Shown: positions 11,533 through 46,578, counted from the stretch's first letter. The stretch is 64,000 nucleotides of DNA from Alphaproteobacteria bacterium PA2 (GCA_002256425.1 NKIZ01000001.1:806001-870000), one strand, 5' to 3'. Translations and numbers: made by a program. Notes: generated by a model from the letters alone, not told the origin.

Positions 11533-11560
11533 GTTTGAGCGAAAGCTCCGAATTCGCAGA

Positions 11561-11587
11561 GGCCGTCCGAAAGGGCGGCCTTTTTCG
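11561..11587 (+). terminator. Rho-independent terminator of rpmB
   Basis: GGCCGTCC-GAAA-GGGCGGCC forms a GC-rich stem with a GAAA tetraloop (11561-11580), followed at once by TTTTTCGTT. It lies 28 nt after the rpmB stop codon. Confidence 0.9.
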
Positions 11588-11639
11588 TTGGGCGCCCCGC
11601 CCTGTTTGACCCGCGGGCGCTGCAGGCCTAACTTCCCAT

Positions 11640-11830: not shown

Positions 11831-11938
11831 CCTTCGACCGGCCGGGGTGCGCCGGGCGAACGGGGTTTCCCGAGCGGCGATGCTTCCTTGAGCCCCCGCG
11901 CAAGCGTGGGTTCGCCATCGCTTGACCGGGACTGACCC

Positions 11939-13858: not shown

Positions 13859-13926
13859 GCCGATCCGCCATTGGCCTGGATCATCAAAGCCCCTATCGGT
13901 TGAGGCAACTCTCCCCCGAGGTTCTC

Positions 13927-26216: not shown

Positions 26217-26236
26217 GGCGACAGATGGGATCGGAC

Positions 26237-27820: not shown

Positions 27821-27889
27821 CTGCCCTATCATAGGAGAGTCTCAAGGGCTCAGTTCGGAGCGTTCGAGACATGCACAGCAGGGGCGATC

Positions 27890-28693
27890 ATGGTTGAAGA
27901 GAAGAACATCGTAAAATCAGTCGGCAAGGCCTTCTCGGTCCTGGAGGCTTTTGGTCCGGACGCCTGTGAAATGGTGCTGGCTGACATCGCCCGGGCGGCC
28001 AAGCTGGACAATGCGACAGCGTTCCGGCTCCTGAACACCCTGGTCATGCTCGGCTATGTCGAGAGGGTCCAGGATACCCGACGGTTTCGATTGACCTTCA
28101 AGTGCCTGGAGCTTGGCTTCAACGCCATCGCGCGGTCCGACCTTCGGAGCCTGGGCCGGCCCTTCCTGCGCGCCATCGTCAATGACCGGCTGGAGGCCGC
28201 TTCGATTGGCGTGCTCGACGGCCATGAGGTGGTCTATATCGAACGAATTCAGGCCGGACTTGAGCGGCTTGCCGTCGACATCCGTGTCGGCAACCGGGTG
28301 CCGGCCTACTCATCAGCAATCGGTCGGGCCATACTTTCCCGCATGCCGGTGGATATCCAGCGGTCCATCCTTCAGTCAGCGCCGCCGCGACGGCTGACAG
28401 ACCAGACCTTGATCGATGTTGACCAGATCCTGGGGCAAATCGCGAAGGCGACTGCCGCCGGCTATGCTGTATCCGACCAGGAGACCGTCACCGGCCTTCG
28501 GGTAATTGCAGCGCCCATTACGGACATTGATGGCGTGCCGATCGCCGCGATCAGCGCCGCAGCCCCGGCCTTTGGCCGGAGCCTTGAAGACTTCATCGGC
28601 GATGCGCGCGATCTCACCTGCGACGCCGCCGCCCGGCTTTCCCTCGCTCTTCGCGCTTCGGGCGGCATGGCCGCCCAGCGATCCGTCACCTAA
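27890..28693 (+). CDS. IclR-family transcriptional regulator
   Basis: A 267-residue regulator. The N-terminal winged HTH covers about residues 5-70 (GKAFSVLEAF, LADIARAAKLDNATAFRLLNTLVMLGYVE), followed by the IclR effector domain (about 85-255; AIGRAILSRMP, GYAVSDQETVTGLRVIAAPITD). Members sense small organic acids and commonly control adjacent catabolic genes. It sits in the same direction between the receptor/esterase pair and the lyase/dehydratase genes, so control of both halves is likely. Its ATG follows AGGGGC by 5 nt. Confidence 0.92.
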   Translation: MVEEKNIVKSVGKAFSVLEAFGPDACEMVLADIARAAKLDNATAFRLLNTLVMLGYVERVQDTRRFRLTFKCLELGFNAIARSDLRSLGRPFLRAIVNDRLEAASIGVLDGHEVVYIERIQAGLERLAVDIRVGNRVPAYSSAIGRAILSRMPVDIQRSILQSAPPRRLTDQTLIDVDQILGQIAKATAAGYAVSDQETVTGLRVIAAPITDIDGVPIAAISAAAPAFGRSLEDFIGDARDLTCDAAARLSLALRASGGMAAQRSVT

Positions 28694-28717
28694 CCTGCAA
28701 TCCCGGAGTTCTCCCCA

Positions 28718-29662
28718 GTGCCGCATACCCTCGACCTCAAGGGACTCATCCCCGCCATCGCCATCCCGTTCGCTGACGACTTCAGCATCGATGCGGCCGG
28801 TTTGACCCGCTTCGCCAAATGGCTCTCGGGGCAGCGCGGCATCAAGGCGCTGATGACCAACGGACATACCGGGGAGGTATTCTCCCTGACGCCGGCAGAG
28901 CGGGTCGAGGTTACGCGGATCACGGTCGCTGCCGTCGAGGGGAGGGTGCCCATCATCTCCTCCATCGTCTGCGAGGGGATCATCGATGCAATAGATCAAG
29001 CCTGTCAGGCAAAGGAGGCCGGCGCTTCGGCCCTCGACATCATGCCGCCGCACCACTGGCTGAGGTTTGGTTTCCGGCCCCAGCATGTGATCGACTATTT
29101 CACCGCCATTGGCGACGCCTGCCAGCTTCCCCTTGTGGTTCATGTCTATCCGGCCTGGACCAAGGCCTCCTTTTCTTCGGAGCTTCTTGCTGAACTGGCG
29201 CGGATGGATCATGTCCATGCCTTCAAGATCGGCACCCGGGAGATGAACAAGTACGCCCGGGACCTTAAGGCCATCCGGGCAGCGGCGCCCGAAAAGGCCC
29301 TCCTGACCTGCCACGATGAATACCTGCTGGCCTCCCTGGTCCAGGGTGTCGACGGCGCTCTGGTGGGCTTCGCATCGCTCATTCCCAACCTGATCCAGGA
29401 CCTGCTCGAGGCGGTCGCCCGGGGCGATCTGGTCGAGGCCATGAGGATCCAGGGCATGATCGATCCGCTGAAGGAGGCCGTCTATGGCGATGGCGAACCC
29501 ACGGGTGAAGCTCATGCCTGCATGAAGGCCGCCATGGCGGCGGCGGGTATCTTCACCAGCGGAACTGTTCGGGCGCCGACCATCGCGCCGTCACAACAGG
29601 AGCTGGTCAGGATCGCAGCGGCCGTCAAGGGCGCGGGCCTGGTCCAGCGTACCGCGGCCTAG
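28718..29662 (+). CDS. Dihydrodipicolinate synthase/N-acetylneuraminate lyase family protein
   Basis: A 314-residue class I aldolase starting at GTG 28718 with CGGAG about 10 nt upstream. The TIM barrel carries the Schiff-base Lys170 (AFKIGT) and the catalytic Tyr144 (HVYP). The usual GTTGE pyruvate-carboxyl motif reads TNGHTGE at residues 47-53. True DapA and NanA differ here, so lysine synthesis is unlikely. In a catabolic setting such proteins act as 2-keto-acid aldolases, hydratase-aldolases or 5-dehydro-4-deoxyglucarate dehydratases. It is followed by the SDR gene with a 3-nt gap. The substrate is unknown, but pyruvate or another 2-oxoacid should be one partner. Confidence 0.85.
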   Translation: MPHTLDLKGLIPAIAIPFADDFSIDAAGLTRFAKWLSGQRGIKALMTNGHTGEVFSLTPAERVEVTRITVAAVEGRVPIISSIVCEGIIDAIDQACQAKEAGASALDIMPPHHWLRFGFRPQHVIDYFTAIGDACQLPLVVHVYPAWTKASFSSELLAELARMDHVHAFKIGTREMNKYARDLKAIRAAAPEKALLTCHDEYLLASLVQGVDGALVGFASLIPNLIQDLLEAVARGDLVEAMRIQGMIDPLKEAVYGDGEPTGEAHACMKAAMAAAGIFTSGTVRAPTIAPSQQELVRIAAAVKGAGLVQRTAA

Positions 29663-29665
29663 GGC

Positions 29666-30361
29666 GTGACCCTGTCCGGCATCCCTGACGGCGCCATCCT
29701 GGTGACCGGAAGCCAATCCGGCATCGGCGCGGCCATCGCCAGCCGGCTTGTCCGCGAGGGGCGTCAGGTGATTGGCGTGGATCTTGTGGCGTCGGCTGAG
29801 GCTGGGTCAGGTTATCTGCAATTCGGCGCAGATCTGACAGATCCCGCCCAGATTCACGCTCTTCTTGAACGCCTTCCGCCGATAGCCGGGCTGGTTCACG
29901 CTGCTGGCTTCATGCGGACGGGTGACATCGCATCCCTGGATCCGGGCGATGGCCAGTCAATGTGGGCGATCCACGTCCAGGCCCTGGTTCTGCTCGCCCA
30001 GCGACTGGTTCCCGCCATGCCCCGCGGCGGCCGTCTCCTGGCGATAGGAAGCAGGACGAGCACCGGCGCCGGAGGCAAGAGTCAGTATGCCGCCTGCAAG
30101 GCGGCGGTGACGGCCCTGATCCGCAGTTGGGCCATCGAGCTGGCGCCCTCCGGGGTGACCGCCAACGTCATTGCTCCGGCGGCGACGGCGACGGGAATGC
30201 TCGTCGACCCCAAGCGGACCCTGGCGCCTGTGGTGCCGCCCATCGGCCGATACATCGAACCCGACGAGATCGCGGCTTTGGCAGCCTTTATTCTCAGCCC
30301 CGAAGCATCCGCCATTACCGGCCAGGAGCTTCTCATCTGCGGCGGCGCTTCGCTCTCGTGA
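29666..30361 (+). CDS. Short-chain dehydrogenase/reductase
   Basis: A 231-residue NAD(P)-dependent SDR from GTG 29666, 3 nt after the lyase stop. The cofactor motif TGSQSGIG lies at about residues 14-21 and the catalytic S...YxxxK is GSRTSTGAGGKSQYAACK. VIGVDL places an Asp at the end of the second strand, suggesting NAD over NADP. It probably oxidises a hydroxyl of the imported hydroxy acid or reduces a product of the aldolase. The tight spacing argues that it works with its neighbours. Confidence 0.9.
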   Translation: MTLSGIPDGAILVTGSQSGIGAAIASRLVREGRQVIGVDLVASAEAGSGYLQFGADLTDPAQIHALLERLPPIAGLVHAAGFMRTGDIASLDPGDGQSMWAIHVQALVLLAQRLVPAMPRGGRLLAIGSRTSTGAGGKSQYAACKAAVTALIRSWAIELAPSGVTANVIAPAATATGMLVDPKRTLAPVVPPIGRYIEPDEIAALAAFILSPEASAITGQELLICGGASLS

Positions 30362-30392
30362 GCGGTGGGCCCAAATTCCAGAAGGACGTCTC

Positions 30393-31565
30393 GTGACCAC
30401 CCCGCGTATTGTCGACATTGTCGAAGTCACCAAGCCCATCTCTTCACCGATCCGGAACGCCTATATCGACTTTTCGAAGATGACCTCCAGCCTCGTTGCG
30501 GTGGTCACCAATGTCGTTCGTGATGGTCGTCGTGTCGTCGGGTATGGCTTCAATTCCAATGGCCGGTACGGGCAGGGCGGCTTGATCCGGGAGCGATTTG
30601 CCGATCGGATCAAGGAAGCCGATCCTGCCACCCTGCTTGATGAAACCGGTGAGAACCTGGATCCGCACCGGATCTGGGCGGCCCTCATGACCAATGAGAA
30701 ACCCGGAGGTCACGGAGAACGGTCGGTCGCCGTTGGCACCATCGACATGGCGGTCTGGGACGCGGTAGCCAAGATTGCGGGAAAGCCCCTGTTCAGGCTG
30801 CTGGCGGAAAGAAAAGGGCGCGAGGCCAACCCCAGGGTCTTCGTCTACGCAGCCGGAGGCTACTATTATCCGGGTAAGGACGATACAGCCCTGCGGGCCG
30901 AGATGCGTAGCTATATCGATCGTGGCTACAATGTCGTGAAAATGAAGATTGGCGGCGAAAGTCTGGCGACAGACGCCCGTCGAATTGAATCGGTCCTGGC
31001 GGAAATCGGATCAGATGCCCAGCTGGCGGTCGACGCGAACGGGCGGTTCGATACGCTCACAGCCATAGAGTACGCCAAGGTTCTCCGGAACTATCCGCTC
31101 TTCTGGTACGAAGAGGCGGGCGACCCGCTGGACTACCACCTGCAATCCGTACTGGCCGAGTTCTATCCCGGGCCCATGGCCACGGGTGAGAACCTGTTCA
31201 GCCATCAGGACGCAGCCAACCTGCTACGATATGGCGGCATGCGCCCCGATCGCGACTGGCTGCAGTTTGACTGCGCCCTGTCCTACGGCCTTGTTGAATA
31301 CCTGCGGACCCTCGATGTCCTGGCCACGGCCGGATGGTCTCCCGCGCGCTGCATTCCCCATGGCGGCCACCAGATGTCCCTCAACATAGCCGCCGGCCTG
31401 GGGCTTGGCGGAAACGAAAGCTACCCGGACCTTTTCCAGCCCTATGGGGGCTTCCCCGACGGTGTCCGGGTGGAAAGCGGACACATCGTCATGCCTGAGC
31501 TGCCGGGCATCGGCTTTGAGGGCAAGAGCGACCTGATTTCAGTGATGCGCGATCTCGCAGAGTAA
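30393..31565 (+). CDS. tarD: D-tartrate dehydratase (enolase superfamily, MLE/MR type)
   Basis: A 390-residue enzyme starting at GTG 30393 with AGAAGGA upstream. It matches my memory of the characterised Bradyrhizobium D-tartrate dehydratase almost end to end, with a one-residue offset: catalytic Lys185 (VVKMK), metal ligands Asp214 (AVDANG), Glu240 (WYEE) and Glu266 (TGEN), and catalytic His323 (IPHGGH). The N-terminal capping loop YGFNSNGRYGQGG and HGERSV are also kept. It would dehydrate D-tartrate to oxaloacetate with Mg2+ in the cytoplasm. A nearby hydroxy-acid substrate remains possible, since the superfamily changes specificity easily. Confidence 0.85.
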   Translation: MTTPRIVDIVEVTKPISSPIRNAYIDFSKMTSSLVAVVTNVVRDGRRVVGYGFNSNGRYGQGGLIRERFADRIKEADPATLLDETGENLDPHRIWAALMTNEKPGGHGERSVAVGTIDMAVWDAVAKIAGKPLFRLLAERKGREANPRVFVYAAGGYYYPGKDDTALRAEMRSYIDRGYNVVKMKIGGESLATDARRIESVLAEIGSDAQLAVDANGRFDTLTAIEYAKVLRNYPLFWYEEAGDPLDYHLQSVLAEFYPGPMATGENLFSHQDAANLLRYGGMRPDRDWLQFDCALSYGLVEYLRTLDVLATAGWSPARCIPHGGHQMSLNIAAGLGLGGNESYPDLFQPYGGFPDGVRVESGHIVMPELPGIGFEGKSDLISVMRDLAE

Positions 31566-31609
31566 CCAGCAAACAAGGGTCGGGCTACACCGACCAAAGG
31601 GAGGTCCAG

Positions 31610-33007
31610 ATGACCGCAAGTTATATGCGTGAAGCAATGATCATAGGTTCGATCATCGTCTATATCCTGCTGACGAGCGTGTGGGCCTGGGTTCTTCGAA
31701 GCAAGACCAGCGCCCAGTTCATGGTCGGGTCGCGAACGCTTCCAGCCGTCGTCATCGGCGTGTTGCTGATGTCGGAATTCATCGGCGCCAAATCCACGGT
31801 CGGCACTGCACAGGAGGCCTTTGAAAAAGGGATTGCCGCAGGGTGGTCCGTGGTCGCAGCCTCGATCGGCTTCCTGCTTCTCGGTCTTTTCTTTGCGCGC
31901 CAGATCTACAATTCCAACCAGCACACCATATCGGGCCTGATCGAGCAGAGGTTCGGCAATGGAACCCGTATCGTGGTGTCGATCATCATGATCTACGCCC
32001 TGCTGCTGGTGAATGTGGGAAACTATCTGAGCGGCGCGGCCGTCCTGAAATCAGCCCTGCACGTAGACCTTACCGTCGCAGCCTTCATCATCGCCGCCTT
32101 CAGCGCCGTCTACTACGTCTTTGGCGGTCTCAAGAGCATTGCCTATGTCACTGTGCTCCACAGCATCGTGAAACTGGCCGGGATCGCAATTCTGGTGGCG
32201 GTCGCCGCAAGGCTTGCGGGCGGGATTACACCCATGCACGCGGCCTTGCCGCAGTACTATTTCACCCTCGACGGCACGATCGGCGCCCCGACCATATTTG
32301 CGTGGATTGTGGGAACTGTCGGGGCGATCTTCTCGACGCAGTACATCGTCCAGGCTATCGCCTCCAACCGCGATACGTCGTCGGCGCGCACCTCTGTTCT
32401 CCTGTCGGCGCTTTTCTGTCTTCCGCTGGGCTTTGCCCTGGCCTTTATCGGCGTCGCGGCTCGATATCTGTACCCCGACCAGGACAGCCTCTTCGCGCTC
32501 CCGGTCTTCATCTCGAAAATGTCGGCGCCCCTGGCGGCTATCGTTTCGGTTTCGCTGGTGGCGTCCGTTCTGGTCAGTGTCAGCACGGTGGCTCTGGCGA
32601 CCACAGCCCTGGTCATGCGGGATTTCTATACGCCCTGGCGCAAGCCTGGCCCTGAGGCCGAGCTGAAGGCCACCCGTTATGTGTCGCTGGCTGTCGGTCT
32701 GACGCCACTGATCTGCGTCTTTTTCGCACCGCACATCCTGGAGCTTTCGTTCTTTACGCGGGCCCTGCGGCTTTCCATTGCCATCGTCGCCCTGATCGGC
32801 GTCTTCCTGCCCTTTGTCGGGTCACCCAGATCGGCGATCACTGCACTGGTCGCCAGTGGTCTCGCCACCACCGCCTGGTACCTGCTGGGCAACCCGTTCC
32901 ACATCGACAACATCTTTGTCGCAGCCATCGTGCCGATTCTTGTCCTGGGCGCAGGCCGCCTCATGGGCGGCCCTGCCGCGCCTCCGCCAACTCCAGCTGA
33001 GGGATAA
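31610..33007 (+). CDS. Sodium:solute symporter (SSS family)
   Basis: A 465-residue inner-membrane symporter with about 13 hydrophobic segments and a strong AAGGGAGG ribosome site. Family features include FMVGSRTLPA, GFLLLGLFFARQIY, the LSGLIEQRFG-like HTISGLIEQRFG loop and AVYYVFGGLKSIAYV. SSS members import sugars, carboxylates, amino acids or vitamins with Na+. It follows the tartrate dehydratase by 44 nt, so it most likely brings the free hydroxy acid released by the esterases across the inner membrane. This role is inferred from context. Confidence 0.9.
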   Translation: MTASYMREAMIIGSIIVYILLTSVWAWVLRSKTSAQFMVGSRTLPAVVIGVLLMSEFIGAKSTVGTAQEAFEKGIAAGWSVVAASIGFLLLGLFFARQIYNSNQHTISGLIEQRFGNGTRIVVSIIMIYALLLVNVGNYLSGAAVLKSALHVDLTVAAFIIAAFSAVYYVFGGLKSIAYVTVLHSIVKLAGIAILVAVAARLAGGITPMHAALPQYYFTLDGTIGAPTIFAWIVGTVGAIFSTQYIVQAIASNRDTSSARTSVLLSALFCLPLGFALAFIGVAARYLYPDQDSLFALPVFISKMSAPLAAIVSVSLVASVLVSVSTVALATTALVMRDFYTPWRKPGPEAELKATRYVSLAVGLTPLICVFFAPHILELSFFTRALRLSIAIVALIGVFLPFVGSPRSAITALVASGLATTAWYLLGNPFHIDNIFVAAIVPILVLGAGRLMGGPAAPPPTPAEG

Positions 33008-33011
33008 CCCG

Positions 33012-34094
33012 ATGAACCGGTTTTTTTCGTTCAGACGCATGGCGGTCCCTACATCCGCCGCTTTCGCCACGGCCCTGGCCGGCGCGACCTCGGTGGCTTT
33101 CGCCCAACAGATTGAGGTCGCGCCCAATGGCGCCACATCGATCCCGGCCATGGAGGTCCCGAGCAGCAACCTCTACAGCGCGGAAGGCAATGCATCCCGC
33201 GTCGAGCACATCCTCACCGAGCGGACGCTCAAGGGCAAATCCATTGATGACCTCAACGCGGCCCTGTTTGGGCCGCGGCTGGAGCGAACCAAGGCTGCCT
33301 ATGCCGTAGCAATTTCCCCGCAGGTCATCGGGGGCGTCAAGGTTCTGGTCTATACGCCCAGGGGCGGGGTCAAACCCGCTGACAGGGACAAGGTCCTGAT
33401 CAACCTGCACGGTGGCGGCTTTGTCGGCTGTTTTGTGGAGTGCGGTGGGCTTGAGGCCATTCCGACGGCGGCCCTTACCGGCTTCAAGGTCATCAGCGTC
33501 GACTATCGCCTGGCTCAGGTCGCGCCATTTCCTGCGGCGACCCAGGATGTGGCGGCGGTCTATCGGGAAGTCCTGAAGACCACACCTGCCCGGAAGGTTG
33601 GTGTTTTTGGCTGCTCTGCCGGGGGCCTGCTCACCGCACAGTCTCTCGCCTGGTTCCAGCATCACGGACTTCCCCGGCCGGGAGCTGCCGGCATCTTCTG
33701 TGCTGGCGCCGATTCCGGCATGGGCGGGGACTCGCGGATCATCGGCATGCTGCTTGGCGATGGGGAACGGCCCGCCGAGGCAAGGCCGGCGCCGACCTCG
33801 CCGCCGACTTCAGGATACCTCAGAGGCGTCTCCCTGACGGACCCCGATGCCTATCCCGCCAGGGATGGCAAAACCCTGGCGGCCTTTCCGCCGACCCTGG
33901 TTGTTACCGGAACCCGGGATTTCGCCATGAGCAGCGCCGTCAATCTGCACAGCAAGCTCGTGGCGTCCGGCGTCGCCGCAGACCTGCACGTCTGGGAGGG
34001 AGGGCGCCATGCCTTCTTCTATGACATCCGGGTCCCTGAGGCGCGTGAGGCCTTCGACGTGGTCAAGGCCTTCTTCAGGTCAAGACTGCGTTAG
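33012..34094 (+). CDS. Exported alpha/beta hydrolase (HSL/hydrolase-fold-3 esterase)
   Basis: A 360-residue esterase whose ATG lies 4 nt after the symporter stop. A signal peptide (about 1-31, AFAQQ) directs it out of the cytoplasm. The oxyanion motif HGGG is at residues 133-136 and the nucleophile Ser202 lies in GCSAGG; the expected GDSAGG has Cys in place of Asp. The acid is in VTGTRDFAMS and the His in GGRHAFFY. Hormone-sensitive-lipase-type enzymes hydrolyse short acyl or aryl esters. It is the last gene of the block and the second secreted esterase in it. Confidence 0.87.
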   Translation: MNRFFSFRRMAVPTSAAFATALAGATSVAFAQQIEVAPNGATSIPAMEVPSSNLYSAEGNASRVEHILTERTLKGKSIDDLNAALFGPRLERTKAAYAVAISPQVIGGVKVLVYTPRGGVKPADRDKVLINLHGGGFVGCFVECGGLEAIPTAALTGFKVISVDYRLAQVAPFPAATQDVAAVYREVLKTTPARKVGVFGCSAGGLLTAQSLAWFQHHGLPRPGAAGIFCAGADSGMGGDSRIIGMLLGDGERPAEARPAPTSPPTSGYLRGVSLTDPDAYPARDGKTLAAFPPTLVVTGTRDFAMSSAVNLHSKLVASGVAADLHVWEGGRHAFFYDIRVPEAREAFDVVKAFFRSRLR

Positions 34095-34832: not shown

Positions 34833-35537
34833 TTATGCGGCGAACTTTTCCCGGTTCAAGTTCATTCTCGCGCGCAAAACTTCGAGGGGGGTATCCAGCT
34901 CGTCCTCCCAGCGCTCGAAGTTGAGGTTGCGGGCGCTGCGGCCATAGCTCCACCCATCAACAAAGGCATCCATGGCGTCGACGATGAGGCCAGGCCTGAC
35001 AAAGGCCATGTGGGCTGCGGTCACCGCCACCCGCATGGCGTGATAGGGGAACCGCAATTGCGCAAGATAGAAGGCGGCCAGGGCCAGCTCGCCCCAGTTG
35101 GTCGCCTCATAGCCCGTCAGGACGTGAAGGAAGTCGTGGATCTGGAAACCGCGCACCATCATGTAGCTGAGGTCTGGCGGCAGCCGGTCCAGCTTGCCGG
35201 AACTGGTCAGCTCCTCATTGAACCTGCGATAGTTGCGCCCGAGGTTTGCTTCCAGCTTGTTATCCAGGATGAAGCGCCGGTAGGCGTGACCGAGCGTACC
35301 CGGCGCGCATTCCGCCAGACGATCCAGGGACAAAGGCTCTGAGATGTAGCGGCTGGCCAGCAAAGGCGCGGCCTCCGGAATGGAGGCGAGCTCACGACTA
35401 TAGGCATCGATGGCCTTTTGTGGAGCTTCCGCCCACCAGTCATGAAAGAGCAGGTAAACCCCGTAGTCGAGGGGCGCGTCTGCGGCCCGCAGGAACTTAT
35501 CTGCGAAGGCCCGATCGATAATTTCTGCGCCAGACAT
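34833..35537 (-). CDS. Coq4-family protein
   Basis: A 234-residue protein with the Coq4 zinc motif HDxxH-x11-E: His134-Asp135, His138 and Glu150 (FQIHDFLHVLTGYEATNWGE). PGTLGHAYRRFILDN is another Coq4 signature. In eukaryotes Coq4 supports ubiquinone synthesis and C1 decarboxylation/hydroxylation; bacterial copies often occur outside ubi operons with unclear roles. Of two ATGs, 35537 is better spaced from GGAGG (7 nt) than 35543. Pairing with its own TetR gene suggests an inducible rather than housekeeping function. Confidence 0.8.
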   Translation of the reverse strand: MSGAEIIDRAFADKFLRAADAPLDYGVYLLFHDWWAEAPQKAIDAYSRELASIPEAAPLLASRYISEPLSLDRLAECAPGTLGHAYRRFILDNKLEANLGRNYRRFNEELTSSGKLDRLPPDLSYMMVRGFQIHDFLHVLTGYEATNWGELALAAFYLAQLRFPYHAMRVAVTAAHMAFVRPGLIVDAMDAFVDGWSYGRSARNLNFERWEDELDTPLEVLRARMNLNREKFAA

Positions 35538-35581
35538 GCTCATTCCTCCAATGTGGACGGCTCAAGCCTAGCACCCTGGAT

Positions 35582-35759: not shown

Positions 35760-37247
35760 CTACAGAGAAATTGATGCGCGGACCAGTTTCGCCAGGTCAT
35801 CCCTGAGCCTTACCGCTCTGGCTCGACCAGCTGCCGTCTTGATGATGTTCACCTGTTCCCTGGGATCGGCCCTGAGGTCGTAGAGCTCGTCCAGTTCCGG
35901 CGACATGTTCCAGTGGACGTACTTGAAATCACTTGTCCGAATGGCCTTGTAATCAGCATCCAGAAGCCAGGTGAATGGCAAGTCGTCGCTGAAATTTTCT
36001 ATCAGGACCTCTGACCTTCTTTTGGGAACTCCAAATTTCCGGGACAGTAGTGGAGCAAAGGAGATTCCCTGGACATGGTCTCCTATGGTCGCATTGCCGA
36101 TCTGAAGTATGGACGGCGCCAAATCAACACTGGAAACAAGGGATTCGATCCGCGAGTTTTCCTTAACGACACCAGGGTATCGGACGAGAAGCGGAGACTT
36201 TATGGATTCTTCATAGGGAAGTCTGCGCTCTAAACTCAGGCCGTGTTCACCAAAGAAGTACCCATTGTCGCTGGTGAAAATGATTGCGGTATTATCCAGC
36301 TGGTTTGCTTCAACCAGTGCTTGATATATATTCCCCAGGCTTTCATCGACGGACAGGATCATTTCCGCCCGATCCCGAATGCTCTGTTCGCTGGTTCCCG
36401 GATCCAGAATGGGTCCAAACTCGCGGACCACTTCTGGTGATTGCTTTCTATCAAGAAACCGTTTGACCATTGCGCTGCCAAGCGTGCCCTCAGCCGCGGT
36501 CTTGCTGATGCTTTGCCTTGGGAAGATCTGATCCTTGTATCGGTCCTTGTACTTTGCAGCCGGGATGTAGCGGTTTCCATATTCCGTATCCACGGAGCCA
36601 TCATCCCTCTGAATGGCGTCCGGGTGTACGGCCTTGTGGGCGAGATGCAGGAAGAACGGCCTGGAATCATCCTTCTGGCGGTTGATGAACCCTGTCGCCC
36701 GATCTGTCAGAATCTCCGTGACATACCCCTTCACGGTGGCGAGGCGACCATTCTCATAGATTTTCGGGTCATTAATCCGCCCCTGCCCAGGGAAGCTGAC
36801 CCAATAGTCAAAGCCCGGTCGCGGCGTTGGATCATTGCCCATATGCCACTTGCCCACATGAGCCGTCGCATAGCCTGCACGCTGAAGATCCTGCGGGAAG
36901 GTCCTCAGGAGGTGGCTGAGGGCATCCCGGCTGGCATTGTTGTAAACACCATGACGCGCTGTGTACTGCCCGGTGAGAATGCATGCCCGATTTGGCGAAC
37001 ATAGCGGGGTCGCGTGGAATGCATTCGAGAATGTCGCGCCTTCCCTGGCCAGACGATCGATGTTTGGCGTCTTCAGGTATGGGTGGCCGGCCGCGCCGAA
37101 TTCATCCCAACGCAGGTCATCGACCAGGATGAGAATGATGTTCGGCGGCCGTTGGGGAACTGGCGTCGGCAATCCGCGAGCTGGTCCTGCTGCAGCCAGG
37201 GTAGCTCCACTGGCGCCGACCAAACCCATGAGTTTTCTACGGTTCAT
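35760..37247 (-). CDS. Type I sulfatase (arylsulfatase/choline-sulfatase-like)
   Basis: A 495-residue sulfatase. ATG 37245-37247 gives a Tat-like signal (MNRRKLMGLVGASG...). The formylglycine site is CSPNR-x4-TG with Cys83, and the metal ligands Asp43-Asp44 lie in ILVDDLRWDEF. GKWHMG, the FLHLAHKAVHP segment and TSDNGYFFGEHGL are family hallmarks. Such enzymes release sulfate from aryl, steroid or carbohydrate esters after conversion of Cys83 by a formylglycine-generating enzyme, which is not in the window. The gene is clearly AT-richer than its neighbours (29 G+C of 60 at 36001-36060), suggesting recent acquisition. It is divergent from the next TBDR. Confidence 0.92.
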   Translation of the reverse strand: MNRRKLMGLVGASGATLAAAGPARGLPTPVPQRPPNIILILVDDLRWDEFGAAGHPYLKTPNIDRLAREGATFSNAFHATPLCSPNRACILTGQYTARHGVYNNASRDALSHLLRTFPQDLQRAGYATAHVGKWHMGNDPTPRPGFDYWVSFPGQGRINDPKIYENGRLATVKGYVTEILTDRATGFINRQKDDSRPFFLHLAHKAVHPDAIQRDDGSVDTEYGNRYIPAAKYKDRYKDQIFPRQSISKTAAEGTLGSAMVKRFLDRKQSPEVVREFGPILDPGTSEQSIRDRAEMILSVDESLGNIYQALVEANQLDNTAIIFTSDNGYFFGEHGLSLERRLPYEESIKSPLLVRYPGVVKENSRIESLVSSVDLAPSILQIGNATIGDHVQGISFAPLLSRKFGVPKRRSEVLIENFSDDLPFTWLLDADYKAIRTSDFKYVHWNMSPELDELYDLRADPREQVNIIKTAAGRARAVRLRDDLAKLVRASISL

Positions 37248-37606
37248 AGCATCATCCAGAGCGCCAGGAGCGGGGGCAAACACACGACTCGCCGTCAGAT
37301 CTGCGGCGTTGCTGAAGCCAGGTGACGCTCCAGCCCCGCCCGGCGAATGGCTGATCCGCCTTATGCCCAGCGCTTGATGAGTACAAGGGGCGACCAAGGG
37401 ATCCGAGCCGATGTTTTGCTCAGGACGCCAGGCCCCGGCGCCCTGTCGCAAGGGCCGTTGGCAATTTTTTCAGGCAGGCATTCCGCCTGATACCCCAATC
37501 ACCTGCCCATGCATGGGTATCCGACCTGCGCCAAAACGAACCTGTTGACCTCAGGCAGACAGGGGCCTCTATTCCGCCCCAAGAAAATACAGGGGGAGAA
37601 ACCACA
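37248..37606. other. Divergent control region between sulfatase and TBDR
   Basis: No gene is seen. It contains the perfect palindrome CCCATGCATGGG (37506-37517) about 28 nt upstream of the TBDR -35, and near 37469-37493 an AT-rich stretch with AGGC/GCCT arms. Promoters for both directions must be here. Confidence 0.55.
37545..37573 (+). promoter_or_regulatory. Probable promoter of the second large TBDR
   Basis: TTGACC (37545-37550) and TCTATT (37568-37573) are 17 nt apart. The predicted start lies about 27 nt before the ATG, and AGGGGGAGAAA provides the ribosome site. The palindrome at 37506-37517 is placed where an activator would bind. Confidence 0.55.
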
Positions 37607-40426
37607 ATGTTGAACACCATTTCGCGTCATCGCGCCTTGAAGACCGGGGCGAGCCTTGCCGCCCTGGCCATGGCCGCACAAATTCTGCCGGCCACGAGCG
37701 CCATGGCTCAAGCCGCGGCAAGCCCATCGGACACCGCCGTTGATGAGGTTGTCATCACCGGAACCCGCCTTCAGCAGAGTGGATTCCAGGCGCCTACGCC
37801 GGTGACGGCCACGGCGGCTGAGGACCTCAAGCGCGCAGCTCCGCGCAACCTGGCCGACGCCCTGACACAGTTGCCGACCTTCAATGCCAGCACGCGGTCA
37901 GAAAACCCGACGACGGCGGCCACCGGCGGCACCAACGGCCAGAACCTTCTGAACCTGCGCGGTCTGGGTCCCAACCGGAACCTGGTCCTGCTCAATGGCC
38001 ACCGGCTGGTGGCGACCAATTCGTCGGGATCTGTTGACATCAACATCCTGCCCCAGGGCCTGGTCCAGCGGGTCGATGTCGTGACGGGCGGCGCCTCTGC
38101 AGCCTATGGCTCGGACGCCGTGGCCGGGGTCGTCAATTTCGTGCTCGACACCCGCTTTGAAGGCCTCAAGGGCGAAGTTCAGGCAGGGGTTTCAACCTAT
38201 GGCGACCTGCCCAGCGGACAGGCCAGCCTGACCTTTGGTCGCAGCTTCATGGACGACCGTCTCCACTTCGTGGCCAGCGCCGAAGTCGCCAGCCAGAAGG
38301 GTCTCGGCCCGACTGAAGATACTGGCCGCGACTGGTTCGAAAAGGCCGCCGGACAGCTTCCCAACCCGGCAGGCGGCTCGCCCGCAGTCCTGGTGGTGTC
38401 TGACATACGTAACGGCGTCGCCACCTATGGCGGCCTCATCACCAACAGCACACTGAGGGGGACCCAGTTCCTGCCCGGTGGCGCGACCTCGACCTTTGTG
38501 CCCGGCAGCATTGTGGGAACCACCTTCCAGAGCGGCGGCGACGGCGCCCGGATCAATATCGGCTTCAGTCCCGACCAGTTCCGGGCAAATGCCTTCGGTC
38601 ACCTGGATTTCGAACTTACCCCCAACGTGAAACTGTTTGCGGAGGGAATGCTTTCGAATTCCCACGTGACGTCAGACAATTTCGTGAACCTGCACACCGG
38701 TTCCGCCAGCCAGTTCACGATCTTCCGGGACAATGCCTACCTGCCGGCCGCTGTCCTGGCGCGCATGGTGTCTGGCAATATCCAGTCCTTCACCATGGGG
38801 CGTTACGAGCGTGACTTCCCCGTCGTGCAGATTGAAACCATCTCGGACATGAAGCGGTTTTCCTTCGGTTCCGAAGGGAAGATCACTGATGACTGGAAGT
38901 TCGACGCCTATGTCACCTATGGCCGCACCGAACAGGAGCTTCGTGAGAACAATCTGACAATCAACCGGCGTCTCTATGCCGCGGCCGACGCCGTGGTGAA
39001 CCCGGCCAATGGTCAGATTGTCTGCCGGTCCACCCTGTCCGGACTTGATGCAGGCTGCGTGCCCCTCAACCTCTTTGGCGAGGGTTCTCCGAGCGCTGCG
39101 GCCATCAGGTATGTGATCGGCGACTCCGTAAAGTACCTTACCCTTGAGCAGACTGTTGCGGCGGTGAACTTCAGCGGAAATCTCGGCGAGACCCTCAATT
39201 TCGGAGCCGGCCCGATTGAGGTCGCCTTTGGTGGTGAGTATCGCAAGGAGACTGCTGACCAGACCGTCGACGCCCTGTCGCCCCTGGTCACCGACGTGAC
39301 AGGCATTCGCGGAGCGCCCGCCTCCCAGCAAGGGCGTCCGGGCTCGTTCAACTTCTTCAATCCCCTGCCCCTGGCCGGCAGTTATGATGTGAAGGAGGCC
39401 TATACCGAAGTCGGCGCTCCCCTCCTGAAGGACAGGCCTTTCGTCAAGGAACTGAGCCTGAGCCTTGCGGCCCGCTATGCTGACTACAGCCAGTCCGGAG
39501 GCGTCACGACCTGGAAGTATGGCCTCAACTATGCGGTCAATGACCAGATCCGTCTGCGCCTGACAAAGTCCCGGGATATCCGCGGCCCGAACATTCTGGA
39601 GCTGTTCAACTCAGCGACCCAGAACAGCAACAACCAGATCTACAAGGGCAAGACGACCCAGGCCCTGACCATTTCGTCGGGCAACCCGGATCTGAAGCCT
39701 GAGCGGGCGACCACCCTGACCTATGGGATCGTCTACCGTCCGGATTTCGTGCCCGGCCTTCAGGCCTCCCTCGACTACTATGAGATCTCCATCGAGGACG
39801 CGATCGGCAATCTGACCGCCCAGCAGACCCTCGATCAGTGCGCTGCGGGTAACCAGCTGCTGTGCAACCAGTTCTCCGTGACCCCACAGAACACCCTGCT
39901 CATCTATACCCGTCAGTTGAACCTTAGCGTTCAGGAGACGGCAGGCTTCGACTTCGAAACAGCCTATCGCCATGAATTCATGGGAGGCGAGGCCTCCATC
40001 CGCCTGCTGCTGAACAAGTCCATTCAGGGCATAAGCCAGGCCCCCGGATCACCCCGCAACACGTCTCTGGGGACCGCCAACTTCCCGAAATTGCGGGGCT
40101 CACTCCAGGCTCGCTATTCCAAGGACAACTGGTCGGTGTTCGTGCAGCAGCGGTACATTTCCGAGGCCCTGTTCGATCCGGACAAGGTTGAGGGCAAGGA
40201 TACCAATGACAACCGTTCTCCGGCCATCGGCTATGTCGATGCAACGGCGACCTATCGCCTGAAGCTTATGGGCGGTGACCAGGAAGCTTTCCTGTCGGTG
40301 ACCAACCTGCTCGACCAGGATCCGCCGGTGGTGACGAGCAACCCCACCAGCTTCTCCTCTCCCACCAGCACCGCCTTTGACCGGACCGGCCGTTACATTT
40401 CAACGGGTCTTCGGTTCCGCTTCTGA
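37607..40426 (+). CDS. TonB-dependent receptor (large Caulobacter/sphingomonad type)
   Basis: A 939-residue receptor of the same group as the one at 23337. It has a signal peptide of about 35 residues (SAMAQA), TonB box VDEVVITGTRL, a plug domain (LRGLGPNRNLVLLNGHRLV, VTGGASAAYGSDAVAG) and a barrel ending GLRFRF. Plug-coding DNA shares an exact 26-nt stretch with the other receptor. It lies between a sulfatase and two putative metallohydrolases, so a sulfated or otherwise conjugated organic substrate is likely, though unproven. Confidence 0.92.
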   Translation: MLNTISRHRALKTGASLAALAMAAQILPATSAMAQAAASPSDTAVDEVVITGTRLQQSGFQAPTPVTATAAEDLKRAAPRNLADALTQLPTFNASTRSENPTTAATGGTNGQNLLNLRGLGPNRNLVLLNGHRLVATNSSGSVDINILPQGLVQRVDVVTGGASAAYGSDAVAGVVNFVLDTRFEGLKGEVQAGVSTYGDLPSGQASLTFGRSFMDDRLHFVASAEVASQKGLGPTEDTGRDWFEKAAGQLPNPAGGSPAVLVVSDIRNGVATYGGLITNSTLRGTQFLPGGATSTFVPGSIVGTTFQSGGDGARINIGFSPDQFRANAFGHLDFELTPNVKLFAEGMLSNSHVTSDNFVNLHTGSASQFTIFRDNAYLPAAVLARMVSGNIQSFTMGRYERDFPVVQIETISDMKRFSFGSEGKITDDWKFDAYVTYGRTEQELRENNLTINRRLYAAADAVVNPANGQIVCRSTLSGLDAGCVPLNLFGEGSPSAAAIRYVIGDSVKYLTLEQTVAAVNFSGNLGETLNFGAGPIEVAFGGEYRKETADQTVDALSPLVTDVTGIRGAPASQQGRPGSFNFFNPLPLAGSYDVKEAYTEVGAPLLKDRPFVKELSLSLAARYADYSQSGGVTTWKYGLNYAVNDQIRLRLTKSRDIRGPNILELFNSATQNSNNQIYKGKTTQALTISSGNPDLKPERATTLTYGIVYRPDFVPGLQASLDYYEISIEDAIGNLTAQQTLDQCAAGNQLLCNQFSVTPQNTLLIYTRQLNLSVQETAGFDFETAYRHEFMGGEASIRLLLNKSIQGISQAPGSPRNTSLGTANFPKLRGSLQARYSKDNWSVFVQQRYISEALFDPDKVEGKDTNDNRSPAIGYVDATATYRLKLMGGDQEAFLSVTNLLDQDPPVVTSNPTSFSSPTSTAFDRTGRYISTGLRFRF

Positions 40427-40500
40427 TCGGTCTCAACCAGGCCGGGCCCGGCGTAATGTCCGGGTCCGGTCCAACTTCCCAGCATTGTTCAGGCGCCTCC

Positions 40501-42804
40501 ATGTCAACATCCCTGCCCGTTATGAGACGTGTCCTTGGTATGGTCCTGACAGGGTCGGCCCTGTTGGCCAGTCATGCCATGGCGGCGCCCCTGGTCTGCG
40601 AAACAGCAGGGTTCAGCCCGGGTGACGGATTTGAGGTCAGCAAGGGCCCGGAAGACGTAACCCTCCAGTGGAGTGGTGAGGCGGGTCAGACCGGCCGACT
40701 GAAGCTGCAGGTCGTCGCCGGAGAGCCGCGAATTGCGGAACTCGCACTCAGGAAGGACGGGGGAGACTGGGTCGTGGTCGGGTCCGACCTGCGTCCCGAA
40801 TTCAGCGTTGTCAGCGGCGTCCGCCGCATGAGCAACCAACAGCTTCAGCCCCTGCGGGACCTGAAGGTTCCCATCACCCAGGAGGTCCTGGACAAGTATC
40901 GCTGGGACCCCTTCTGGGATGCGCCGCTGGATCTCGCGGTCCCGGTTCCAGGCCGGCAGATGAGCGGCAATCCTCCGCCCGGAGCAGGTCTTCCGGGGAC
41001 AGACCAGGCGGGCCTTCCGCGCTCGGCGCAGGAAATCAAGCGCGCAGCCATCGAGTACCGCATCGAAAACTGTTCTGTCCGCCGTGATGGCGGCCGGATC
41101 GTCGCGTCATTTCCTGGCGTAAAACTCGGGGTCTTTGACGGGCGTCTCGAGATCACTGTCTTCAAGGGCACCAATCTGATCCGTCAGGAAGTGATCGCCT
41201 CAACCCAGGAAAAATGGGTCGCCTACAAGTTTGATGCGGGTCTCTCCGGATTCCGTTCAGGCCCGGAGGCCTCAGTGACCTGGCGGGACACGGCGGGCGA
41301 TCAGCAGGCCTATCGGTTTGGCGGGGCGCCAAACAAGGGGCCAGTCGCCCTCGAGGCAGCCAATCGCATCATCGTTGCAGAGCAGGGTGCGAGCGCCATC
41401 GCAGCATTTCCCACGCCTCACAAATTCTTCTGGGCGCGGGAGGTGGCGATCAACATGGGCTACAACTGGTACCGCAAGGACAGCGAAGCCAGTTTCAGCA
41501 TCGGCGTCCGCCAGAACGAACACGAGGATCCAAGCGAGGCCCAGGCCAACTGGGCGCTCTACAGCGCCCGGCCAGGTACGGATCAGCTGATGACGCTCTT
41601 TCTCTATCCGAGTCTTGCGGGAGGGCAGGGCGCCAGAGAGGCTGCAATGAGCTTCACCCATGGCGACCGCTACAAGCCGCTGGCGGGCTACCAGGTGATG
41701 AACCACCACTATCACATGGATCTCGGGCAGAGGCTCCTGGATGCCGGAAGCCCTGACGAAAAGGTTCCTGATCTGGTCGCCCTCAAGGCCCTGGGGATCA
41801 ATATCGTCAGCCTGATCGACTCCGTCTTCTTCCAGCCGCCCAATGCCCCGCCGCCGACCGGGCGGGTGCGCCCCGATCAGCTGCCGATCACTGCGTCTTC
41901 GATCAAGGGAGCCCAGATCCATTCGGACAAGGACTTCCTCGTCATGGCCAACCAGGAAGTCTATGGCAGCCCTCTGGGCGGGCACACCGACCTGCTCTTC
42001 AGCCGTCCGGTTTACTGGGACAGCCGCAAGTCAGGTCAGCCCTTCAAGGAAGCGCATCCGACCTATGGAAACGTCTATCACATTGGCGATGCCGCCGACT
42101 TTCTGCAGATGGCCAAGGAACAGGACATACTGATTTCCATGCCCCATCCCCGGACCAAGGGGTCAACGGGGTATCCTGACGCCATCCGGGAAGAGTCCTA
42201 TTTCAACGACCCCCACTATCACGGGGTCGGTATGCGCTGGGGTATGGGGCTGGATGGCTCCGAAAGGCGTTTGTGCGAACTCAGGTGCTGGCCCCTGCTG
42301 GACGATATGAGCAACTGGGCCGTAGACCGTCCAATGCCGCTCAAGTTTGTCACCGCCATTTCCGAGGTCAGGTACATGGCCCCCGGCGATGACATCTATG
42401 GCAGCCAGCCTGTGAGTTATCTTCGTTTGCCGACCCTCCCGCCGGCCACTGACCCCAGTCCCGTGATCCAGGCCCTCGCCCGTGGCGACAGCTTCTGGAC
42501 AACTGGCGAGGTCCTGATCCGGAACCTGGCCTTGCAACCTGCCAAAGGCGGCCAGCAGCTGTCTGCAGAGGTCGAATGGACCTATCCGCTGGAATTCGTC
42601 GAAATGGTTTGGGGCGATGGCAAGACGACACGGCGTACGGTCATCCCGACCCGTGATCTGGCGCCCTTCGCCAGCCACAGGTTCGAGTTTCCCATCCCGG
42701 CCAAGGGCGCCAAGTGGGTCCGGTTTGCGGCCTGGGACATCGCGTCCAATGGGGCTGTCAGCCAGCCGATGCGTACGGGCGCCATGCCGGGGAAGGCCAA
42801 ATAA
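40501..42804 (+). CDS. Exported CehA/McbA-like PHP-family metallohydrolase
   Basis: A 767-residue protein downstream of the TBDR (74-nt gap). ATG 40501 gives an export signal (hydrophobic segment MRRVLGMVLTGSALLASHAMAA); a start at 40522 is also possible. The N-terminal ~380 residues are beta-rich and unrecognised. The C-terminal part carries His402-His403-x-His405 (NHHYH), DKDFLVMANQE and HPRTKG with His549, then ALARGDSFWTTGEVLI, which resembles the end of CehA (carbaryl hydrolase)-type PHP domains. A periplasmic metal-dependent hydrolase of esters, carbamates or phosphates is the best guess; the exact metal set differs from what I remember of CehA. Confidence 0.6.
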   Translation: MSTSLPVMRRVLGMVLTGSALLASHAMAAPLVCETAGFSPGDGFEVSKGPEDVTLQWSGEAGQTGRLKLQVVAGEPRIAELALRKDGGDWVVVGSDLRPEFSVVSGVRRMSNQQLQPLRDLKVPITQEVLDKYRWDPFWDAPLDLAVPVPGRQMSGNPPPGAGLPGTDQAGLPRSAQEIKRAAIEYRIENCSVRRDGGRIVASFPGVKLGVFDGRLEITVFKGTNLIRQEVIASTQEKWVAYKFDAGLSGFRSGPEASVTWRDTAGDQQAYRFGGAPNKGPVALEAANRIIVAEQGASAIAAFPTPHKFFWAREVAINMGYNWYRKDSEASFSIGVRQNEHEDPSEAQANWALYSARPGTDQLMTLFLYPSLAGGQGAREAAMSFTHGDRYKPLAGYQVMNHHYHMDLGQRLLDAGSPDEKVPDLVALKALGINIVSLIDSVFFQPPNAPPPTGRVRPDQLPITASSIKGAQIHSDKDFLVMANQEVYGSPLGGHTDLLFSRPVYWDSRKSGQPFKEAHPTYGNVYHIGDAADFLQMAKEQDILISMPHPRTKGSTGYPDAIREESYFNDPHYHGVGMRWGMGLDGSERRLCELRCWPLLDDMSNWAVDRPMPLKFVTAISEVRYMAPGDDIYGSQPVSYLRLPTLPPATDPSPVIQALARGDSFWTTGEVLIRNLALQPAKGGQQLSAEVEWTYPLEFVEMVWGDGKTTRRTVIPTRDLAPFASHRFEFPIPAKGAKWVRFAAWDIASNGAVSQPMRTGAMPGKAK

Positions 42805-42956
42805 GCCACAGCCCGGCGCCATTGGGGATCTTGTCGAAGGACTGTCGCGCGCGTCGCAAATTGGCAAGGATGATTTCCTAGACGGGTTCTGCGATACGAA
42901 AAGGTGTGGAGCCGCCCCGATCTGCGGTTCTGTGGGGCAGTCAGGGAGACCCAGAA

Positions 42957-44651
42957 ATGCGTGGCTTCGATTCCGATCCTTCGGTGGTCGTCAGTGGACC
43001 GCTGGGGCAACTGACCCACCGCCGCAATCTTGAACACAGTGCACGACTGGCCAAGCAGTTCTATGCCGTGCGGCCAGGTGTCTGGACCTTCGTGGGCAAC
43101 GGGCTTTCCAACCAGACATTTGTGGAAGGGCCCGGGGGGATCATCGCTGTCGACACCGGCGAGAGCATCGAGGAGATGCGCGCCGCCCTGGCTGAGTTGC
43201 GTCAGCAGACCCAGGCGCCCGTGGTGGCCGTGCTCTATACCCACTTCCACTATATCGGCGGAACACGGGCGATCCTGGATGAGGCTGGCGCCGACATCCC
43301 CATTCTTGGTCACGAGCGGATCCCGCTCAATCTTGCCCGCGTCTCGAGCGAAATCGGACCGGCCTATTCCCGTGGCCTGATCCATCAGTTCGGATTGAGG
43401 TTGCCCGAGGAGGGGCCCGACGCCCTGGTCAATGAAGGGCTGGGTTCGCACTTCCGCAACCCGGAACACGCCCCGTTTACGCCGGGCTATGTCCCGCCGA
43501 CGGCGGTCTTCAAGGGCGGCGAGCGGCTGAACCTTGCGGGGTTGACCGTCGAGATCACCCACGCCCCATCCGACGCCGACGACTCCGTCACCTTCTGGTT
43601 TCCCGATCTCGACGTTTGCATCCAGAATCTCGTCTGGCCGACCCTGTTCAATATCTTCCCCATTCGCGGCGAGGCCTACCGCGATCCGCAGGTCCTGCTG
43701 CAAGGGATCGACCATATTGTCGGCCTCCAACCCGAGCACCTTCTCGGGGCGCATGGCCCGCCGATCTCTGGCAAGGCCCAGACCGTGGCCCGCGCGACAG
43801 CCTATCGGGACTCCATCCAGTTCCTCTGGGATCAGACGGTGCGCGGCATGAACAAGGGTCTGACCGCCGATCAGATGGCCCACGCCATCGTCCTGCCCGC
43901 CAGTTTCGATGACGACTATCTCACCTCGGAATTCTACGGGGTCGCCGAGCACCATGTGCGGCAGATCGCGGCCGGTGTCAGGGGTTGGTTCGACGATGAC
44001 ACCTCGCGCCTCTTTCCCCTGGAGCCGGTCGAGCGCGCTGGCCGCCTGATCGCCGAACTCGGTGGAGCCGAAGCCGTCCGTGGCAAGGTCACGGCGGCGC
44101 GGGCCTCGAACGATCTGCGCTGGGCGCTCGAGCTGGCTTCGTGGCTGAACACCCGGGCCGGCGCCGAGACAGCGGACCGTGAACTGCTTGCGGGCGTGCT
44201 GCGCGATCTGGCCAGCCGGACCACCGCCATGAACATCCGCAACTGGTGTCTGACCCGGGCCCGGGACCTTGACGGGTCAACGGACCTGTCCAAGTTGCGC
44301 GAGCACAGACTCCGTGCTTCGCAGCTGCTGGGCCAGTCGCCCTTTGAAACCCTTCATCTCCTGCGGGTCCTGCTGGATCCGGAACGGGCCAGCGGAATTG
44401 ATCTGCATGTCGGGTTCAGGTTCCCCGATGCCGAGGCTGCCGGCCTTCATATCCGCAATTGCGTCTCGGTCGCCACATCGGGCAAGGGTGCGGCTAACAC
44501 CCTCGAAATCACCTATGCCGATCTTGTCCGTGTACTGACCGGCACTGCGAATCTCTCTGATCTTCTCACCACAGGTGGCGCCAAGGCCGAGGGGGACGCC
44601 GAAGGACTGCGGCGCGCCCTGGCGAGCTTTGATGTCCCCGGCCTGCGTTAG
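42957..44651 (+). CDS. Alkylsulfatase-like MBL-fold protein
   Basis: A 564-residue protein in three parts like SdsA1/BDS1 alkylsulfatases: an MBL domain (1-270), an alkylsulfatase dimerisation domain (about 275-420; GMNKGLTADQMAHAIVLP, EFYGVAEHHVRQIAAGVRGWFD) and an SCP2-like C-terminal domain. ATG 42957 follows AGGGAG; it has no obvious signal peptide. The metal motif is unusual: HxHxDH reads THFHYIGG (His96, His98), lacking the Asp-His pair, and the TEAPAE-like segment reads HAPSDADDS (202-210). His266 is kept (GAHGPP). It may bind one metal or act on a different ester. Confidence 0.82.
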   Translation: MRGFDSDPSVVVSGPLGQLTHRRNLEHSARLAKQFYAVRPGVWTFVGNGLSNQTFVEGPGGIIAVDTGESIEEMRAALAELRQQTQAPVVAVLYTHFHYIGGTRAILDEAGADIPILGHERIPLNLARVSSEIGPAYSRGLIHQFGLRLPEEGPDALVNEGLGSHFRNPEHAPFTPGYVPPTAVFKGGERLNLAGLTVEITHAPSDADDSVTFWFPDLDVCIQNLVWPTLFNIFPIRGEAYRDPQVLLQGIDHIVGLQPEHLLGAHGPPISGKAQTVARATAYRDSIQFLWDQTVRGMNKGLTADQMAHAIVLPASFDDDYLTSEFYGVAEHHVRQIAAGVRGWFDDDTSRLFPLEPVERAGRLIAELGGAEAVRGKVTAARASNDLRWALELASWLNTRAGAETADRELLAGVLRDLASRTTAMNIRNWCLTRARDLDGSTDLSKLREHRLRASQLLGQSPFETLHLLRVLLDPERASGIDLHVGFRFPDAEAAGLHIRNCVSVATSGKGAANTLEITYADLVRVLTGTANLSDLLTTGGAKAEGDAEGLRRALASFDVPGLR

Positions 44652-45615: not shown

Positions 45616-45957
45616 GGCGTTCTCCCACTACAGCCCGGCCTGATGTCGGGGCCTTCCAGTCCTGCCAAGCTAAGGAAAACGCTAGCCCATTCAAGTGGGT
45701 AGTTCCGGAGCAAGGCTTTGGTGGAGTCCTGCGGAAAAGCTGGGCAATTGCGTGCCTTTGTCAGGCGTCACAGTCTCATTCCAAAGCGCCTGGTTTCGCG
45801 GAAATCGGCCGGCGCCGTCGATCCTGCCTGGAGACCCCGACAGCGTCGCAATGTATGCTGCCCCATTGCAATCGCCTTGCGATCGTCTCGAAGTCCATTA
45901 GGCAAGGCAAGCGGCGCTGCACGGAGGCGGCGCTCTGGATTCAGGAGTGCCCGATCA
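45616..45957. other. Divergent intergenic region
   Basis: I see no convincing gene. An open frame runs leftward from the aldolase (to 45718) but lacks homology and has poor coding character. It should hold promoters for the DLH and aldolase genes; I could not pick a clear -35/-10 pair. Confidence 0.4.
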
Positions 45958-46578
45958 ATGACAAGTTTCCAGGCCGCCTTCGAAGAAGCGCCTCTTGTCG
46001 CAATCCTGCGGGGGGTCCGCCCCGATGAAGTGGCGTCCATCGCCGAGGCGCTTTTTGCTGCCGGACTTCGTCTGGTCGAGGTGCCTCTCAATTCCCCCCA
46101 ACCGCTCGAAAGCATTTCAGCCCTTCGACAGATGGAAGGGCGGATGATCTGGGGCGCGGGTACGGTGCTCACTCCGGATCAGGTTGACGCGGTCGCAGGG
46201 GTTGGAGGGCGAATGATCGTCAGTCCGAATACAAGCCCTGCGGTCATACTCCGCACGGTCGAACTGGGTCTGGAGCCACTGCCAGGGTTCGCAACCGCGA
46301 CCGAAGCCTTCGCCGCCCTTGACGCCGGCGCCAGACGGCTGAAGCTCTTTCCTGCGGCCAGCTATGGTCCTGATCACCTCAAGGCCCTGAAGGCTGTCCT
46401 TCCGGTCGAGGCCGAAGTCATTCCTGTTGGAGGAGTGGGGCCAGACCAGATGGCGGCATGGAAGGCGGCGGGCGCCCGGGGTTTCGGTCTCGGGTCGGAC
46501 CTCTACAAGCCCGGCATGACAGCCGATGAGGTCGGGCGCCGTGCTTCGGCCGCATTGACGGCCCTACGTGCGGCGTAA
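45958..46578 (+). CDS. dgoA: 2-dehydro-3-deoxy-6-phosphogalactonate aldolase
   Basis: A 206-residue class I aldolase of the KDPG/KDPGal family. The catalytic Glu41 (LVEVPLNSP), GAGTVL, the phosphate loop PVGGVGPDQM and Schiff-base Lys129 (RLKLFPA) are present. VPLNSP rather than VTLRTP, GSDLYKPG and PLPGFAT point to DgoA (De Ley-Doudoroff galactose pathway), giving pyruvate and glyceraldehyde 3-phosphate. An in-frame GTG 12 nt upstream is possible. The other genes of that pathway (dgoK, dgoD, galactose dehydrogenase) are not in the window. Confidence 0.9.
   Translation: MTSFQAAFEEAPLVAILRGVRPDEVASIAEALFAAGLRLVEVPLNSPQPLESISALRQMEGRMIWGAGTVLTPDQVDAVAGVGGRMIVSPNTSPAVILRTVELGLEPLPGFATATEAFAALDAGARRLKLFPAASYGPDHLKALKAVLPVEAEVIPVGGVGPDQMAAWKAAGARGFGLGSDLYKPGMTADEVGRRASAALTALRAA

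Follow-up and report, generated by a model that had tools for sequence, protein, structure and literature searches.

In the alkylsulfatases SdsAP and SdsA1, one zinc ion is held by Asp196, His197, Glu322 and His367 and the other by His192, His194, Glu303 and Glu322 (SdsAP numbering; PMC5426288), and in Pisa1 a binuclear zinc cluster activates water, with a histidine as the catalytic acid (PMC3920027). CehA enzymes cleave carbamate esters; four histidines are essential in CehA CFD-1 (H313, H315, H453 and H495), and one cehA gene has a TonB-dependent receptor (TBDR) gene upstream (PMC8292978). For S1_11 sulfatases, a sugar recognition triad of His and Asp-Arg has been described (PMC10154612, used here without residue numbers). 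We compared these systems with a four-gene stretch in a 64-kb window (the whole stretch of DNA that was analysed) from a water/soil-type Caulobacterales bacterium with a complete genome of 3.47 Mb. ORF calls and Pfam/NCBIfam matches bore out the four genes reported by the initial annotation, in both place and family, with the following features:

35760..37247, minus strand: S1 sulfatase, ~495 aa from its likely start, with a Tat-type signal and the FGly motif CSPNR
37607..40426, plus strand: TBDR, 939 aa, divergent from the sulfatase (Pfam)
40456..42804, plus strand: putative divergent CehA/McbA-type PHP metallohydrolase with a signal peptide (NCBIfam and a bridging homolog)
42957..44651, plus strand: alkylsulfatase-fold MBL protein with an HFHY motif, ~564 aa, no signal peptide (Pfam, fold)
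43242..43253, plus strand: HFHY codons (residues 113-116 of the listed ORF), in place of HxHxDH

Two of the starts as first listed call for correction. The sulfatase most likely begins at the ATG at 37247 rather than at 37451, because a Tat-like signal (NRRKLMGLVG) follows and the ortholog in a second genome of the same genus, G063, starts at the same place; the MBL gene most likely begins at the ATG at 42957 rather than at the GTG at 42906, given the family start MRSFD and an upstream GGAGA. With these corrections, the divergent gap between sulfatase and TBDR is ~360 bp, the TBDR-PHP gap is 29 bp and the PHP-to-MBL gap is ~150 bp, and the MBL gene has its own ribosome-binding site. Searches around the genes for consensus promoters and terminators gave nothing above shuffled sequences. 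Beside the sulfatase lies a Coq4-like gene (34833-35543), away from any quinone biosynthesis gene seen in the window.

We consider it likely that the four genes constitute two functional units rather than one locus. The first, comprising the S1 sulfatase, the TBDR and the PHP-like hydrolase, probably acts jointly: G063 encodes orthologs of all three (76%, 84% and 70% identical, respectively) in a row on one strand, and the adjacency has thus been kept despite re-orientation of the sulfatase, which is divergent in the window. The block is seen in these two genomes only, so a single comparison underlies the case for its coherence, and the PHP gene itself occurs in 2 of 149 relatives, namely the window's own genome and G063. 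The second unit is the alkylsulfatase-like MBL gene, which is independent and merely downstream of the PHP gene, because its G063 ortholog lies on another contig (locus L118) from the first unit and other MBL loci, including those of other Phenylobacterium, have neighbours that differ from the window's. The gene is present in 16 of the 149 relatives, all within the genus, and the nearest relatives of its product come from Phenylobacterium and other Caulobacterales MAGs. No close TBDR or PHP relatives were found in the flanks of related MBL loci, nor does any neighbour of the HFHY gene recur in most Caulobacterales loci. The single locus proposed by the initial annotation therefore stands for three of the four genes, which G063 keeps together, and falls for the MBL gene, which it carries elsewhere; the new sulfate-ester route proposed with it is partly supported.

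The sulfatase of the first unit has full Pfam Sulfatase and SGSH_C domains (PF00884, 3e-59). Its FGly motif, CSPNRACILTG, conforms to C/S-x-P-x-R and is intact, and the genome, which encodes six S1 sulfatases, also encodes a formylglycine-generating enzyme (FGE; PF03781, 4.8e-77), making an active window sulfatase plausible. The TBDR contains both plug (PF07715, 3e-20) and beta-barrel (PF00593, 2e-34) domains. The PHP protein is harder to place: it has no Pfam match, its match to the NCBIfam CehA_McbA model is 1.7e-4, and it scores 21 bits against NF038032, below the cut-off of 80, so that from the window sequence alone the assignment is weak. A search of plasmids gave one match. A Hymenobacter volaticus plasmid protein aligns with 94% of the PHP protein at 27% identity and fits the CehA/McbA model over its own length (5e-15; 55.6 bits across the whole domain), and five candidate ligands (H418, H420, E501, H510 and H564) are common to all three homologs. 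On the strength of this bridging homolog and the shared residues, we assign the PHP protein as a putative divergent member of the CehA/McbA type. H418, H420, H510 and H564 follow the order of the CehA histidines, a comparison made without alignment to CehA itself. The window protein resembles the CehA/McbA carbamate hydrolases in its HxH, E, H and HP pattern, in its C-terminal domain and in the TBDR upstream, as in Sphingomonas CDS-1, but differs in a long unique N-terminal half. Only three members of the family were found; beyond the protein's own genome, 385 genomes of the class and 398 of the phylum gave no match. An AF2 model built from two sequences reached a pLDDT of 32.6.

The three-gene module is a variant of a common arrangement, and a very rare one. 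Its neighbours in G063 are DUF3604 (PHP-like) genes and a multicopper oxidase gene. DUF3604 was rejected as a relative of the PHP protein, since hhalign detected no similarity (with two-sequence profiles, a weak comparison), although DUF3604 genes flank the module there. Beside the G063 block, at 10576-14604 of locus L086, two consecutive full-length DUF3604 genes are 76% identical to each other and are followed by a third ORF with no Pfam match. A different genus of the order has an S1 sulfatase (37%) after a TBDR and a conserved 444-aa protein that shows next to no similarity to known families (L114, 5011-10783; L115, 9641-15356).

We propose that the TBDR would import a sulfated conjugate, most likely a sulfated oligosaccharide or glycoside and possibly a sulfated small molecule. 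In the periplasm, the exported S1 sulfatase would cut the sulfate ester and the exported CehA-like metal hydrolase a second, ester- or carbamate-like bond; the localisation, substrates and reactions in this scheme are predicted from the sequences. The initial annotation preferred a sulfated small molecule over a polysaccharide on the grounds that glycoside hydrolases and sulfate transport genes were lacking. Among the window ORFs scanned we likewise found no glycoside hydrolase, but the argument is weak because such genes can lie elsewhere in the genome, and the closest relatives of both the sulfatase and the PHP protein have links to carbohydrates. The best solved sulfatase relatives are N-acetylglucosamine-6-sulfatase and mucin-desulfating enzymes. 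On Sphingobium/Novosphingobium plasmids, sulfatase relatives at 36% identity adjoin TBDR, GH3 and FGE genes, and other sphingomonad plasmid relatives adjoin TBDR, MFS and oxidoreductase genes; in Hymenobacter, GH92 and GH97 genes come after the gene of the PHP homolog. Pointing the other way are the carbamate esters split by CehA enzymes, the TBDR upstream of one cehA (PMC8292978) and the positions aligned to the S1_11 sugar triad, which look changed. On balance we slightly favour a sulfated sugar or glycoside as the candidate substrate; the relatives on which this choice between glycan and small molecule depends are distant (31-37% and 27% identity).

Almost an even chance goes to another account of the first unit, as an ordinary outlier of sphingomonad-type glycan or glycoside loci whose glycoside hydrolases are supplied elsewhere in the genome. 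This account concerns the first unit only and is compatible with the division into two units. The S1 relatives accompanied by TBDR, GH3 and FGE genes and the PHP homolog beside GH92/GH97 speak for it; yet these relatives are distant, no glycoside hydrolase gene lies among the scanned window ORFs, and the recognition residues of S1_11 (PMC10154612) look altered. The window module shares an S1 sulfatase and a TBDR with the sphingomonad loci and has a PHP hydrolase instead of GH3, FGE and MFS genes. The S1_11-like GlcNAc-6-sulfatase BT4656 (5g2v) is the nearest S1 relative and shares the CxPxR motif and the Sulfatase and SGSH_C domains, but the window sulfatase is roughly one third identical to it and appears to differ at the S1_11 recognition positions. 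Judged by alignment to the triad, Asp may have replaced His and Glu may have replaced Asp, and the FDKR and RHYG positions read LERR and ADYK; 6S-GlcNAc specificity is therefore not indicated.

Turning to the second unit, the MBL protein matches PF14863 (6e-26), PF14864 (5e-12) and PF00753, comprising MBL, dimerisation and C-terminal domains, and its AF2 model (pLDDT 91.7) best matches YjcS, SdsA1, SdsAP and Pisa1 with Z scores of 34-36 over 527-545 residues. It thus shares the whole-length fold, with the dimerisation and C-terminal domains, of these type III alkylsulfatases, but is 24-28% identical to them and has no signal peptide; we expect it to be cytosolic. The protein falls into a clade with at least 80 loci, in Caulobacterales (~65-75% identity) and in Acidimicrobiia, Gammaproteobacteria and Burkholderiales (~50-55%); no HFHY protein was found on plasmids at 1e-80. 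About 90 columns are invariant in 41 clade sequences at 50-75% identity, which together with the confident whole-length alkylsulfatase fold indicates that the clade is conserved rather than decaying.

The metal site of the clade is remodelled. In SdsA1 numbering, used in this paragraph, the first zinc is held by D173, H174, E299 and H344 and the other by H169, H171, E280 and E299. By numbering offset, we take SdsA1 H306 to be equivalent to Pisa1 His317, which we presume to be the catalytic acid. A two-residue deletion converts HxHxDH to HFHY, so that D173 and H174 are absent in 82 of 82 members; all 82 also carry E280D and E299N, the latter turning the bridging Glu into Asn, and 81 have Phe at position 306, the remaining one having Tyr. 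In contrast, SdsA1, YjcS and two canonical paralogs of the window genome keep every ligand and H306. Because the ligands D173, H174 and E299 and the acid His306 are lost, the known alkylsulfatase mechanism, judged on sequence, should not work in this clade, which argues against the proposal that the gene encodes an alkylsulfatase-type sulfate-ester hydrolase. H169, H171, H344, N307 and R312 are kept, as in the type III enzymes, so the clade would retain the weaker zinc site (two His and one Asp, with E/D at 280), one His of the other site, and the Asn and Arg. The HFHY protein probably carries a single metal and acts on a different bond, by hydrolysis or rearrangement. We also considered the DNAN demethylase DnhAB, a deep-branching MBL with weak local similarity to alkylsulfatases but consisting of two short subunits of ~320 aa (PMC11631463); judged from its description, it stands apart from the HFHY clade, and we rejected it as the clade's identity for its different length and split genes.

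In other lineages, the pathway of the clade appears to include an S1 sulfatase of its own. An S1 sulfatase gene lies directly downstream on the same strand in 41 of 80 clade loci, with a 4-base overlap in 20, and is adjacent on the other strand in two more. This partner is ~780 aa long with a CSPTR-type motif, and most of the pair loci are from Acidimicrobiia. Caulobacter L020 also has the pair, its MBL gene being caulobacterial (73% to L018) and its partner sulfatase 64-69% identical to actinobacterial ones; in Phenylobacterium G014 the pair spans two contigs, with the end of the MBL gene overlapping the start of the sulfatase on contig C113. Partner orthologs occur in 6 of 149 relatives, five of which have the MBL gene (5/6 vs 11/144 genomes; Fisher p 4e-5, a statistic that ignores shared ancestry). 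The window genome has no ortholog of the partner (best 40%). Here the role of the partner might therefore have passed to the local S1 sulfatase, and, against the division into two units, the four genes might work together after all.

A 2-oxoglutarate/Fe(II) oxygenase gene comes before the pair in many Acidimicrobiia loci, where the surrounding genes encode formate dehydrogenase, formate-tetrahydrofolate ligase, a dimethylglycine/sarcosine dehydrogenase-like fusion and ETF. This setting hints at a substrate that carries methyl groups. Tentatively, and with the odds against it, we read the HFHY clade as unrecognised single-metal (two-His-one-Asp) non-sulfatase enzymes that would, with a type I sulfatase, dismantle a sulfated, methylated lake compound; the sulfatase would be translationally coupled and act in series, in Acidimicrobiia with the 2-oxoglutarate oxygenase gene and genes of one-carbon oxidation alongside. 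At 439-20739 of L028 and in similar Acidimicrobiia loci, the pair sits among 2OG oxygenase, FTHFS, DMGDH/SarDH-GcvT fusion, ETF and GntR genes, and the formate dehydrogenase alpha subunit seems to be split over two separated genes. Two genes after the window MBL gene lies a 2-dehydro-3-deoxy-6-phosphogalactonate aldolase-type gene (45718-46578, start probably near 45960); a KDPG-aldolase-like gene likewise follows the S1 sulfatase in L142.

Two further explanations appear improbable, to about the same degree. In the first, the reading of the initial annotation, all four genes would together scavenge sulfate esters from a sulfated small molecule, different esters being attacked by the type I and the type III sulfatase. 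The TBDR, PHP and MBL genes are adjacent on the same strand, MBL relatives often adjoin an S1 sulfatase, and CehA-type hydrolases cleave small esters and carbamates, with a TBDR upstream of cehA in strain CDS-1 (PMC8292978). However, the MBL gene is unlinked in G063, in the window 150 bp separate it from the PHP gene and it has a ribosome-binding site of its own, its product has lost the metal site and catalytic His, and the sulfatase relatives are carbohydrate-linked. The second, that the clade is a non-catalytic or regulatory alkylsulfatase remnant serving as partner of the S1 sulfatase, would fit the lost Asp, His and Glu ligands and acid His and the tight operon with that sulfatase, but H113, H115, D223, H283, N249 and R254 (window protein numbering), like many residues of the pocket, do not vary across ~50% divergence, as would be expected rather of a working site, and most Caulobacterales loci of the clade lack an S1 neighbour.

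Elsewhere in the window, a separate operon (23337-34094) encodes a TBDR (33% to the locus TBDR), an esterase, an IclR regulator (PcaR/PobR-like), a DHDPS-family enzyme, an SDR, an SSF transporter and a hormone-sensitive-lipase-type esterase. Its enolase-superfamily protein is near-orthologous to Bradyrhizobium Bll6730 (PDB 2dw6/2dw7), which we take to be a D-tartrate dehydratase, and the operon may act on tartaric acid esters.

With the three-gene module, a CehA-type hydrolase joins the known components of sulfatase loci. Of the two units, the alkylsulfatase-like gene is the more unusual, for reasons absent from the initial annotation. We found no published description of the HFHY clade in the openly licensed literature. 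Databases will name its members alkyl sulfatases, while their sequences say that the known mechanism cannot run. Conserved across phyla, in MAGs that come mostly from lakes, the HFHY-S1 pair points to an organosulfate pathway that has had no assignment so far.
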